The notes under the pieces were generated by a model, which did not search any database, was not told where the DNA came from, and saw only the letters and a list, made by a program, of their open reading frames with translations. Below, one piece after another: positions 26,347-37,768 of a stretch of DNA of 64,000 bases (the first letter of the stretch is position 1; each line of letters starts with the position of its first letter). A program made the translations under genes and the position numbers. Source of the DNA: Bacillota bacterium (lineage in GTDB: Bacteria > Bacillota_A > Clostridia > Lachnospirales > Lachnospiraceae); contig JAEYMU010000025.1 in assembly GCA_023407175.1 (NCBI GenBank), positions 270,141 to 334,140 on the forward strand, read 5' to 3'.

Positions 26347-26815
26347 TTAGCTTAAGCGTATAATCATCAGGGATGCTCCGGCACCGTTAGCAATCAGGGT
26401 TGCTGCACCGACAAGCAGGGGGGCAAACATCTGCAAGGATACGGTGGCACCTACACCCAGGTTTATTTCAATTTCATTGTTGTAATTTGACAAAGACAGC
26501 ACAGGGAGAATGGTGGAAGCGGTATTTGCCGAGCCGTTAATTATTAATCGGGAACCTAGCAGCAGGGAGGCGGTCGTATTAATCCGGTAGGAAATACGAT
26601 AGGTTCCGAAGGTATTAACAGTAAAAATCGTATTGGCTCCATTCACTGTTATATCTGCGGATAAAAGCTGATTGCTGGGCAGCGGAATCAGAGTGCCGGC
26701 CACCAATACAGTAATCAGAGCCCCGGTCGTATTGGCTGCGTAGCCTGCGGTTGCGGAGGGATTGGGACCAAGCGGTCCGGTGGCTCCGGTGGCTCCGGTC
26801 GCCCCGGTAGGCCCG
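26347..26815 (-). pseudogene. Collagen-like spore-surface protein 2, C-terminal half (split by element 2)
   Basis: The frame has no start of its own. It begins at the recombination core with Gly-Pro-Thr / Gly-Ala-Thr triplets, then PLGPNPSATAGYAANTTG and a ~130-aa beta-rich C-terminal domain ending GASLMIIRLS. That domain resembles the jelly-roll end of BclA-type exosporium proteins. The matching N-terminal half is at 29985-30686 on the same strand, 3.2 kb away. Joining at the AC core (30046-30047 with 26815 onward) gives 641 + 469 = 1110 nt, 370 codons including stop, in frame. Confidence 0.85.
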
Positions 26816-26840
26816 GTGGGTCCGTTTATATTAGGAAACT
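26816..26840. other. att junction of element 2 with the C-terminal collagen half
   Basis: Plus strand: GCCCG, core GT (26816-26817), GGGTCC, then GTTTATATTAGGAAACTG. Read from the element side on the minus strand it is TTTCCTAATATAAAC-GGACCC-AC, the inverted counterpart of the junction at 30022-30047. Confidence 0.7.
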
Positions 26841-26944
26841 GAAAAAATTGAAAGTAATTAAACAGAATATTGAAAATCTTTTAATTACTTAATTGAACAA
26901 TAGTTAAAGAACGATTTATATAACCTAAAATGGGAAAATTCGTA

Positions 26945-26971
26945 CTAATACTTACGCCTACTTTCTCCAGT
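26945..26971. other. Orphan att half-site with a different arm
   Basis: Core GT at 26970-26971 in CTCCA-GT-GGCGCC. The arm on the element side (ACTAATACTTACGCCTACTT on the plus strand) does not match either of the two other arm types. No partner is visible in the window. Confidence 0.5.
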
Positions 26972-27172
26972 GGCGCCCGTGGGACCAGTAGCACCTGTGG
27001 AGCCAGTAGCTCCAGTAGGACCGATGGCACCTGTGGGGCCCTGCCCTGCGGATGCTAACGCACTCTGCATCTTATTCTTGCAAAGCAGTTGATTCTGGAC
27101 AATACTGTCTAATATGGACCTTACGCTATCATTGGCGGCAAGTACGTCCTCCACACTTATACTGCAGTTCAT
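26945..27172 (-). pseudogene. Fragment of a further collagen-like gene (5' truncated, cut at an att core)
   Basis: 75 codons. Residues from ~SVEDVLAANDSVRSIL to KNKMQSALAS match the N-terminal domain of the collagen protein at 34781 (ELLAANESVRSMI...KNKMQSALASS), but its first ~60 residues are missing. GPTGAIGPTGATG triplets follow and stop at ACT (Thr), where the sequence leaves collagen at the same codon phase as the other junctions. It lies inside element 2 beside the recombinase remnant, so it records an older insertion. Confidence 0.7.
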
Positions 27173-27229
27173 AACATATTATGAGCGTAAATATAGAAAC
27201 GGCAGGTTTATCTTTCGGCGGCCTTTTCA

Positions 27230-27571
27230 GAAATTGCTTCCGGCATTACTCACCAGGATTACCGCCATATGCAGGAAGATTACGAACGGCAAATTAAGGC
27301 TATCGACGAAGTTATCAGAAATCTGCACAAAGAAAAGGCAGAGCTTGAAAATAAGGTTAATACGGAAAACTCATTCTTAGCAAGCTTTAGGAAATACGAG
27401 AATATTGACAAGCTGACAAGAGGGGTTTTGATCGAGCTTGTGGAGCAAATCAAGGTGTACGGCAACGGCAATATCCGTGTTCACTTGAAATTCGCCAATG
27501 AGTCCGCCGGGCAGCAGAATACATTGAAGTCAATTTTTGCATTCCGGGTTGAACTGCAATCGTTTCATTAA
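27230..27571 (+). pseudogene. Large serine recombinase, C-terminal remnant
   Basis: In-frame residues EIASGITHQDYRHMQEDYER through NIDKLTRGVLIELVEQIKVY...IRVHLKF align with the C-terminal coiled-coil end of the recombinases at 32669 and 37781 (quoted in parts). The catalytic N-terminus and the DNA-binding domain are gone. Sequence is clearly diverged from those two, fitting the different att arms of element 2. The last ~40 bp overlap the 3' end of the MFS gene on the other strand. Confidence 0.75.
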
Positions 27572-35947: not shown

Positions 35948-35975
35948 TATATTATGTAAATTTTTGACAAATGTT
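35948..35975 (-). promoter_or_regulatory. Sigma-K-like promoter, leftward
   Basis: Minus strand: AAC (35975-35973), 16 bp, CATAATATA (35956-35948). This fits mAC-N16/17-CATAnnnTA exactly and is ~35 bp from the glycosyltransferase start. Confidence 0.6.
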
Positions 35976-35999
35976 ACATTATGGCTTCAGATAGGAAGC

Positions 36000-36027
36000 A
36001 CAGTATCCTATGTTGTTTCATAAGATA
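36000..36027 (+). promoter_or_regulatory. Sigma-K-like promoter, rightward
   Basis: CAC ending at 36001, 17 bp, CATAAGATA (36019-36027). It fits the sigma-K consensus and faces the glycosyltransferase at 36118. Both divergent collagen operons thus carry a late mother-cell type promoter. Confidence 0.6.
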
Positions 36028-36117
36028 TAAAGTGAGGTTAAGTCATTTATTGCGGTTTGAGTGCTATAAAGCAATTGGCTGGCAGCAGACAGTAGACGGT
36101 AACTTAGGGAGGAAGAA

Positions 36118-37203
36118 ATGATTACGATAACTCTGGCTATGATAGTTAAAAATGAAGAAAAAACGATAGAGAGATGCCTCAATTGTGTTGAAAATATTAT
36201 GGACGAAATAGTTATTGTTGACACGGGCTCCACCGACAGGACAAAAGAGCTGTGTTTAAAATATACGGATAAAATTTATGACTTTACCTGGGCGGAGGAT
36301 TTTGCTGCGGCAAGAAATTTCTCCTACAGCCATGCAACAAAGGAATATATTATGTGGCTGGATGCCGATGATATTCTGCTGCCGGAGGATAATCGGAAGC
36401 TTCTGGAGCTGAAGGAAAACTTAAGCGAAGAGATCGACGCGGTTATGATGAAATATGCAACTGGCCTGGATACCAATGGTCATATCATATTTTCTTATTT
36501 CAGGGAAAGGCTGACCAGAAGGAAGAACCATTATCTCTGGCAGGAACCAGTACATGAATATCTTCAGATTTATGGAAAAACCATGAACAGTGATATTACG
36601 GTAATTCATGCCAAGCCTGCCGGGGCAGTGCATCAGACGGACCGGAATATAAGAATTTATGAAAAGCTCATAAGCAGGGGGGAAGCACTGTCACCCAGAG
36701 GAATTTATTATTATGCCAGAGAGCTTAAGGATCATGGGAGATATGAGGATGCCGCAAAGCAGTTTCATAAATTTCTCGACTGTGAACAGGGGTGGGTGGA
36801 AGATAATATCAATGCCTGTGCAGAGCTGGGTAAATGCTATCTATTGTTAAATAAACCGATGAAAGCGCTGGAAAGTCTATTCAAAAGCTTTTCCTATGAT
36901 ATGCCCCGGGCAGAGCTGTGCTGCCAGATTGGTTACTATTATCTGGAGAGGGGTAATTATAGGAGCGCTGTTTTCTGGTTTGAGCTGATTTTGTCCCTGC
37001 AAAAGCCGGTGGATGGTTGGGGCTTCTACCAGCCAGATTGCTGGGGCTATATTCCCTGCATTGAATGTGCGGTATGCTATGACCGGCTGGGGGAATATGA
37101 AAAAGCGATGGTATATAACCAAAGAGCACTGGAATTTAAGCCGGATTCAGTGGCCGCATTGTCGAACCAGCAGTATTTTAAGGAAAAATTAAAGAAAGAT
37201 TGA
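36118..37203 (+). CDS. Family 2 glycosyltransferase with TPR tail (B)
   Basis: 361 aa, paralogue of the divergent gene at 34809. GT-A marks: ITLAMIVKNEEKTIERCLN, IVDTGSTDRTKEL, DxD in IMWLDADDILL. The TPR-like C-terminus includes CAVCYDRLGEYEKAMVYNQRA. AGGGAGGAAG precedes ATG. It lies 13 bp upstream of the third collagen gene and probably glycosylates it. Confidence 0.85.
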   Translation: MITITLAMIVKNEEKTIERCLNCVENIMDEIVIVDTGSTDRTKELCLKYTDKIYDFTWAEDFAAARNFSYSHATKEYIMWLDADDILLPEDNRKLLELKENLSEEIDAVMMKYATGLDTNGHIIFSYFRERLTRRKNHYLWQEPVHEYLQIYGKTMNSDITVIHAKPAGAVHQTDRNIRIYEKLISRGEALSPRGIYYYARELKDHGRYEDAAKQFHKFLDCEQGWVEDNINACAELGKCYLLLNKPMKALESLFKSFSYDMPRAELCCQIGYYYLERGNYRSAVFWFELILSLQKPVDGWGFYQPDCWGYIPCIECAVCYDRLGEYEKAMVYNQRALEFKPDSVAALSNQQYFKEKLKKD

Positions 37204-37216
37204 GGGTGAAATAGAA

Positions 37217-37768
37217 ATGTCCATGCCTAATTTCCCATGCATAAGTCCTGAAATCACACGCGATAAAGCATTATCAATGATTTTAGCATCTATCGCCATG
37301 GAGGAGCTTGGAATCAGTCATATTATTAACGCAGAAGGCGAGAAGATACAATATGTATTAAATGATTTGGCTAATCATACGGGCTCTGGGGCAACCGTGG
37401 AGGAGATATTATCGGTAAATAGAAGCGTAGAATCGCTAATCAATATATTAATGCAAAGTCAGGTATTTCTTAAGAATAAAATGGATCATGTTCTTGATAT
37501 GATGGCCTCTGAGCTGGGTCCCACCGGCCCGGCAGGCCCAACCGGAGCCACCGGCCCGAGAGGTCCGGAAGGTCCCCGTGGAGCGAGAGGTCCGACGGGT
37601 CCCAGAGGAGATACAGGAGATACGGGAGCAACCGGTCCTGAAGGTCCGGCAGGACCTGTGGGAGCAACCGGTCCAAAGGGAAATACAGGAGCAAAGGGGG
37701 ATACCGGTGCGACGGGTCCAAGAGGCTCCACGGAGCCTACAATAAAAGGAAAACAAACTGCCTTTTAA
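37217..37768 (+). CDS. Collagen-like spore-surface protein 3, N-terminal half (split by the conjugative element)
   Basis: 183 codons as it stands. N-terminal domain MSMPNFPCISPEITRDKALS, EELGISHIINAEGEKIQYVL matches the other two. Triplets from ~97 have more charged residues (GPRGPEGPRGARG) than copies 1 and 2. The core ACG (Thr, 37730-37731) is the same codon phase (515 nt from the start, remainder 2, as for 452 and 641). It then reads into the att arm as EPTIKGKQTAF. Its C-terminal half is predicted beyond the far end of the conjugative element. Confidence 0.85.
   Translation: MSMPNFPCISPEITRDKALSMILASIAMEELGISHIINAEGEKIQYVLNDLANHTGSGATVEEILSVNRSVESLINILMQSQVFLKNKMDHVLDMMASELGPTGPAGPTGATGPRGPEGPRGARGPTGPRGDTGDTGATGPEGPAGPVGATGPKGNTGAKGDTGATGPRGSTEPTIKGKQTAF
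37730..37757. other. att junction of the conjugative element with collagen gene 3
   Basis: GGCTCC, core AC (37730-37731), GGAGCC, then TACAATAAAAGGAAAAC. The arm is the same type as element 1's. The six bases on either side of the core form a perfect inverted repeat. Confidence 0.75.

Follow-up and report, generated by a model that had tools for sequence, protein, structure and literature searches.

Large serine recombinase elements split collagen-like genes at a single codon position and probably use the collagen repeat as their attachment site

How do three collagen-like genes in one bacterial genome come to be broken off at the same position of a threonine codon, and what would happen if the DNA that interrupts them were removed? 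The question is raised by a 64,000-nucleotide (nt) stretch of contig JAEYMU010000025.1 from a member of the Lachnospiraceae (the window), in which the broken genes lie beside large serine recombinase genes or the remnant of one. We favour a model in which integrative elements use Gly-X-Thr collagen repeats as their bacterial attachment site (attB), with removal predicted in the sporulating mother cell; we give this model as a whole a probability of about 0.6.

Collagen genes 1 and 2 lie in tandem on the minus strand. The N-half of gene 1 (34330..34781, minus strand) is 452 nt long including a core AC at 34331-34330, and its C-half (30703..31356, minus strand) has the core AC at 31356-31355, resumes at 31354 and encodes a BclA_C domain before a stop that ends at 30703; the interruption measures 2,975 base pairs (bp) core to core. 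The N-half of gene 2 (30046..30686, minus strand) comprises 641 nt including the core AC at 30047-30046, and its C-half (26347..26817, minus strand), again with a BclA_C domain, has the core at 26817-26816 and resumes at 26815, giving an interruption of 3,230 bp core to core. Gene 3 is represented by an N-half on the plus strand (37217..37731; 515 nt including the core AC at 37730-37731); neither a second arm nor a C-half was found for it up to base 64000. The AC, bases 1 and 2 of a Thr codon, is the end point of all three N-halves and the resumption point of both C-halves. Joined there, gene 1 reads 1,104 nt including the stop (367 amino acids, aa) and gene 2 reads 1,110 nt including the stop (369 aa), the two genes then lying 16 bp apart (from the stop of gene 1 at 30703 to the start of gene 2 at 30686). 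Shifting the C-side by one or two bases produces early stops, after 232 or 152 aa in gene 1 and 246 or 279 aa in gene 2, and the length of the third N-half leaves a remainder of 2, so that its core is also in frame. A preliminary description of this DNA had claimed a split at one codon position with exact in-frame restoration, which is now confirmed to the base; of the wider context GGNNCC-AC that it gave for the core, the AC is general, and the N-half of gene 2 reads GGACCT-AC. Collagen-like proteins of this kind are known from the surface of bacterial spores. The domains follow the BclA-type order of a collagen repeat and then a BclA C-terminal domain: both C-halves match PF18573 (E values 4.1e-41 and 8.6e-35), and the collagen repeat PF01391 is over its cut-off in the N-halves of genes 2 and 3 and just below it in that of gene 1 (27.1 vs 27.2 bits).

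Uninterrupted relatives of these genes exist, and the split state is therefore most simply the derived one. With the joined gene 1 protein as query, 2,985 of 7,995 scored candidates matched at E <= 1e-20, and ten of the first 18 among the 120 matches listed (361-371 aa) have 100% query coverage, 60-68% identity and both collagen and BclA_C domains. The preliminary description had suggested comparing related strains for uninterrupted genes of 368 and 370 codons. The same-length homologues with the same domains, together with the reading frames, lend sequence support to its further claim that removal of the elements would restore full-length genes. An intact tandem pair of collagen genes in genome G299 (301 and 294 aa) bears on which half belongs to which: both halves of gene 1 find their best match in the first G299 gene and the C-half of gene 2 in the second, so that by sequence the pairing is supported by three of the four halves. 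Genome G116 combines an intact pair (417 and 343 aa) with a third, divergent gene (236 aa), which is the arrangement of the window, although only the N-parts matched.

The interrupting DNA has ends of a definite form. Element 1 (31357..34329; 2,975 bp core to core) carries a TauE/SafE-type membrane protein as cargo (31596..32423, plus strand; PF01925) and recombinase 1, a large serine recombinase of 551 aa (32669..34324, plus strand; PF00239, PF07508, PF13408). Its distal arm, CCTACAATAAAAGGAAAAC (31361..31379, plus strand), has no mismatches to the common arm pattern, and its recombinase-side arm (34307..34325, minus strand) contains the recombinase stop codon. Element 2 (26818..30045; 3,230 bp core to core) encodes a MarR-type regulator and a major facilitator superfamily transporter, together with a collagen N-fragment and a recombinase remnant, and is bounded by the arm CGTTTATATTAGGAAA (26823..26838, plus strand) and an inverted partner identical at 16 of 16 bases (30025..30040, minus strand). 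The remnant (27269..27571, plus strand) is not a whole gene but a recombinase C-end, 49% identical to recombinase 1, and the broken collagen N-fragment joined to it lies at 26961-27168 on the minus strand; this combination is a sign of an older nested element. Element 3 (37732..64000), which resembles an integrative and conjugative element (ICE), leaves the window; its recombinase-side arm (37736..37754, plus strand) follows the same pattern as the element 1 arms and is followed by recombinase 3, of 561 aa (37781..39466, minus strand; PF00239, PF07508, PF13408, PF14287), and its upstream partner, an 87-aa DUF6870 protein (39553..39816, minus strand; PF21757, E 1.4e-25). The large serine recombinase domain set (Resolvase, Recombinase and zinc ribbon) is over cut-off in recombinases 1 and 3; PF14287 (DUF4368) is over cut-off in recombinase 3 (28.7 vs 25 bits) and unmatched in recombinase 1 at E 0.001. 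The cores are central to the inverted arms, as seen in the pairs 31337-31379 / 34307-34349 and 26823-26838 / 30025-30040, both of which were among the nine pairs returned by a blind inverted-repeat search of 11.5 kb. In each of two reconstructed element attachment sites (attP), the ends are near-palindromic around the core, at 18 of 21 positions.

To see how far this arrangement extends, we scanned with recombinase 1, which gave 31 loci, and with further copies, so that 119 recombinase 3′ ends were examined (the match had to reach position 450 of recombinase 1, and near-identical repeats were dropped). Of the 119 ends, 38 have collagen repeats within 330 nt, a count in which a run-length rule scored L040 (G008) as negative, yet it is a collagen junction. 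The usual geometry is TTTCC, 16 nt, the 2-bp core and then collagen in register; in a tally of arms hand-picked from the collagen-flanked ends, 36 distinct junctions are in the Thr register and four are not. None of the 49 recombinases below 36% identity (those with 400 nt upstream) has collagen within the same distance. When the collagen label is mapped on a tree of 103 recombinases, 10 changes suffice, against 29.4 for shuffled labels, and a single 54-row clade contains all 35 collagen rows. Viral contigs with related recombinases (five loci, 32-34% identity) have no adjacent collagen, and MT837700 and OY725840, with recombinases at 53-54%, have none in the stretches read. Elsewhere, one contig of G019 carries four recombinases within 12 kb.

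Both ends are known for thirteen elements of 2-40 kb, and all thirteen rejoin in frame. They comprise the two of the window (W1 and W2, that is, elements 1 and 2), L009 (3,348 bp), L019 (2,028 bp), L022 (9,271 bp), L024 (4,094 bp), G008 (29,151 bp), G021 (6,023 bp), G023 (40,240 bp), G173b (25,580 bp), G156 (29,752 bp), G029 (28,192 bp) and G013b (3,646 bp). Blind inverted repeats among 33 sequences yielded five of them (W1, L009, L019, L022 and L024), W2 was first read by eye, and seven came from a search for the distal ends of 22 elements, 15 of which were not found, several of them near contig ends; because candidates in that search were ranked partly by collagen register, those seven are less independent than the five blind ones and W2. 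Four of the joins have limits of their own: the N-half at L019 has lost its start domain, a contig end cuts the N-half at L024, the C-half at G029 runs into masked bases, and the C-half at G173b ends with no evident C-terminal domain. The thirteen elements sit in differing collagen genes, and thus related enzymes enter several target genes. G008 and G023 are inserted in the opposite orientation, where the core GT starts a Val codon, as predicted for a core that is fixed and asymmetric. G021 and G023 have near-identical recombinases (end branches 0.003 and 0.0015), yet they occupy different genes and hosts in different orientations and differ in size, which suggests recent movement. At the small extreme, L019 consists of little more than two arms enclosing a recombinase and a DUF6870-like gene. 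On the strength of the arms, the intact homologues and the thirteen in-frame elements, we reject the idea that unrelated halves were brought together by chance.

The best check on the attachment-site model comes from a sequence that was not used in building it. CP141730.1 is a circular plasmid record of 72,574 bp from Oscillospiraceae bacterium MB08-C2-2, with ParA/ParB, a MobP3 relaxase and conjugation genes; its recombinase has 74.7% identity to recombinase 3 and is accompanied by the two-box motif described below. One intact attP starts 28 nt beyond the recombinase gene (2 kb of the record was unread) and is identical at 41 of 44 bases to the attP predicted from G008. The plasmid may be an excised element or one that never integrated. 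Collagen repeat runs occur elsewhere on the same record, and rpsI and rplM (locus L256, CP141730.1:57800-58639) stand beside its conjugation genes, which is unusual on a plasmid. An intact attP of the predicted form, and the same geometry in many relatives, strongly support the earlier proposal that collagen repeats serve as attB, and its reading of a 2-bp core fits these data as well. Judged by such comparisons, collagen targeting is close to shown; catalysis is predicted.

A link to sporulation would come from what lies upstream of the recombinases. A DUF6870-like gene is present in 26 of 29 loci (L001-L028 and L031), in L024 apart from the recombinase; three such genes were confirmed as PF21757, and weaker relatives also stand beside recombinases without collagen. 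Upstream of the DUF6870 gene, or of the recombinase where that gene is missing, as in element 1, is a promoter-like motif of two boxes, TCATAGGACAA-N11-CATA, whose spacing is near constant while the adjacent DNA diverges. In the window it precedes recombinase 1 (32592..32617, plus strand) and the DUF6870-recombinase operon of element 3 (39843..39868, minus strand). With at most one mismatch allowed, and with rows of <400 nt upstream dropped, 26 of the 36 collagen-adjacent rows have box 1, as do 8 of the 17 other rows at >=50% identity, 2 of the 12 at 36-50% and none of the 49 below 36%. The frame of the motif, ATA-N17-CATA, resembles the spoIVA promoters of like hosts (N16 in eight and N17 in four of 24 loci, in several of which the start is misplaced), and SpoIVA is encoded in all 26 genomes searched. 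In Clostridioides difficile, sigma-E promoters are described as having an ATA -35 element and a -10 element much like that of sigma-K, and bclA genes are listed with the sigma-K genes (PMC3789822). The motif thus gives some support, at the level of sequence resemblance, to a connection between the elements and spore formation. A SpoIIID box was also considered and set aside: the TAGGACAANY part of the motif fits the consensus WWRRACARNY, but no convincing box was seen upstream of the best sigK-like matches in 20 genomes, and it is not used as evidence. Two groups differ in what accompanies the recombinase. More distant recombinases (L083, L084, L088, L089, L090, L091, L106 and L019; 37-45% identity) stand beside collagen without the two-box motif, and a sister subclade (L070-L074, L076-L078 and L081) has neither visible collagen nor the full motif.

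The target genes have neighbours and upstream boxes of their own. Directly upstream of collagen gene 1 is a gene (34809..35912, minus strand) that matches both its partner at 36118 and the G116 homologue of that partner, and directly upstream of collagen gene 3 is the partner itself (36118..37203, plus strand), with 48% identity to the gene beside the G116 collagen pair; judged by their sequence, both are putatively glycosyltransferase-like. Sigma-K-like boxes occur in both directions between these divergent operons (36000, plus strand; 35975, minus strand) and, of three other target genes tested, two have such a box upstream; with similar boxes in 4-6% of shuffles, however, the evidence from them is weak.

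These observations can be assembled into a mechanism. Comparison of the loci shows a recombinase clade, mostly with a DUF6870 partner, whose members border elements 2 to 40 kb in size; each such element lies between two collagen halves, and its inverted arms stand 21 nt from a 2-bp AC/GT core. The palindromic attP of the circular element would recombine with the repeat GGN-NCN-ACN-GGN, and since both core bases belong to a single codon, an exact reversal would rebuild the gene. In a further step, of which we are less sure, a sigma-E-like promoter may drive the recombinase operon, so that recombinase and partner would appear in the mother cell before the late spore-surface collagen genes are needed, as with skin and sigK. 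We prefer such excision on account of the motif, the kind of gene targeted and the precedents set by skin, SP-beta and gin. Extended to the whole clade, the picture would be one of developmental recombination: recombinase-DUF6870 modules, from a two-gene unit of 2 kb to conjugative elements, would home to the collagen repeat and be deleted by a sigma-E-driven burst of recombinase in the mother cell, leaving intact, perhaps shuffled, collagens for the spore surface while the germ line keeps the elements. We hold this extension tentatively, at somewhat less than even odds.

Several observations weigh against our model, and the first three of them also against the simple switch that the preliminary description proposed. 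No excised joint or circle was found in 36 genomes with a strict pattern, one that overlooks arms with TTTCTT as in the G021 type; the circle pattern did match one viral contig, which has no related recombinase. Element 2 has a recombinase remnant and no intact recombinase of its own, so that its removal would be possible only in trans, and it is a relic unless helped in that way. Element 1 has a recombinase, the motif and both arms and lacks a DUF6870 gene; element 3, with a recombinase, DUF6870, the motif and an arm of the element 1 type, could also serve it in trans. The N-half of gene 2 is, unexpectedly, closer to the first than to the second G299 gene (116 vs 95.9 bits). Within the clade, no collagen is seen in nine rows that form a subclade with L070 (50-53% identity; one row short-flanked), the close relatives L004 and L018 keep the arm and core but have non-collagen neighbours, and examination of the 3′ ends found no collagen at L011, L016 and L079 and one copy in L013. 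As for the motif, its -10 side departs from that of spoIVA, nine collagen rows lack it, and its covariation with collagen is non-significant after kinship correction (five independent pairs, median p 0.25); the regions upstream of the top sigK-like genes, taken from 20 genomes of hosts and relatives, contain no such box. It is also rare and largely element-specific, with eight exact matches in 7 of 200 genomes, five of them at element recombinases and three with no recombinase nearby (a reversed control pattern gave none among the rows shown). A generic sigma-E promoter is ruled out by this rarity of the full two-box motif.

The alternative that survives these points best is that collagen repeats are a safe, repeated landing site in genes that are not needed during vegetative growth, with no programmed excision and with the split genes lost until an element departs by chance. 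Element sizes and cargo like those of ordinary mobile DNA speak for it, as do the relic state of element 2, the L019 host gene without its start domain and the missing circle pattern, and the motif is at most a candidate sporulation promoter. Nevertheless, a two-box motif that stands ahead of the recombinase operon in constant form, its boxes spaced much as in spoIVA, is hard to place in such a scheme, and the halves are open in all 13 whole elements, although recent insertion would leave them open too; we regard this explanation as less likely than our model. Far less probable is that the sites serve shuffling, in which inversion between left and right attachment sites (attL and attR; the C-side of element 1 and the N-side of element 3 have arm and core in common, inverted) would join the N-half of gene 3 to the C-half of gene 1 and yield chimeric collagens: the arm pattern common to elements 1 and 3 and the in-frame cores would allow it, but no chimera was seen, none having been specifically looked for. 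Least credible is that decayed or separate genes lie in a repeat-rich, recombination-prone region with recombinases adjacent by chance, for although collagen DNA is repetitive and decay is visible in L019 and element 2, the exact arms and cores, the geometry fixed across the clade, the intact homologues, the intact attP and the lack of collagen beside all 49 distant recombinases bring it close to refuted.

Element 3 carries further genes of note. Its ICE-like character is seen in a MobA/VirD2-type relaxase (52031-53497), an NlpC/P60 protein (61002-62972) and a weak TraG-type P-loop match, below its cut-off (62965-63903). It also encodes a Gabija-type anti-phage pair (54102-58047, plus strand; PADLOC models GajA, E 1.7e-234, and GajB, E 1.5e-191) and an ATP-binding cassette ATPase with an FtsX-type permease, followed by a response regulator (41542-44859 and 49713-51729, minus strand). 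A 25-nt palindrome of the type ACTTCGGGCCAACTTGGCCCGAAGT is present in four copies at 39928-46120, and similar ones occur upstream of the DUF6870 genes of related elements.

A recombinase clade with a protein repeat as its attB would find a landing site wherever a host has collagen-like genes, which would explain how such elements pass from species to species. Should excision prove to be tied to sporulation, this would be, to our knowledge, the first version of the skin arrangement to target a repeat and to involve many genes, and one could test in numerous hosts in parallel why mobile DNA occupies spore genes. The compact units, with their clear attachment-site code, are also candidate integration tools. 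Among the matches listed in the literature searched, which left most subscription journals uncovered, there was no report of serine-recombinase elements that target collagen genes.

The closest known parallel is skin in sigK, which is excised in the mother cell by SpoIVCA in Bacillus subtilis and by CD1231 with CD1234 in C. difficile, the recombinase or directionality factor being under sigma-E and SpoIIID (PMC5025042, PMC517825). As here, a large serine recombinase element splits a gene, one of spore formation there and putatively so here, and its precise removal restores the frame, which in our set holds, by sequence, for 13 of 13 whole elements. In contrast, skin has one conserved target gene and its excision has been shown, whereas the present elements enter many different collagen genes through their repeat and are known from sequence alone. 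Split spore genes are likewise rebuilt by serine recombinases in the case of SP-beta in spsM and gin in gerE (PMC5595907), the latter without phage genes (PMC5595907, PMC4191935). The SP-beta recombinase YokA is among four solved-structure matches (E 1.8e-15), but SP-beta and gin have a single target gene and are distant in sequence, and the word collagen does not occur in PMC5595907. The best solved-structure match is TnpX of the Tn4451-type mobilisable transposons (2mhc, E 8e-18), an enzyme with a target of 2 bp (PMC3158075); recombinase 3 is also matched by TndX records, though at only 30% identity, and, unlike here, no collagen target is named for these enzymes in the available part of PMC3158075. 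Durrant 2022 described how one clade of related DUF4368 large serine recombinases enters many target genes (PMC10083194), and DUF4368 is shared by recombinase 3; the word collagen is absent from the main text of that paper. The example given there uses relaxed, T/A-rich sites around a TT core (PMC10083194), whereas the elements described here appear to read a codon-phased, GC-rich protein repeat.

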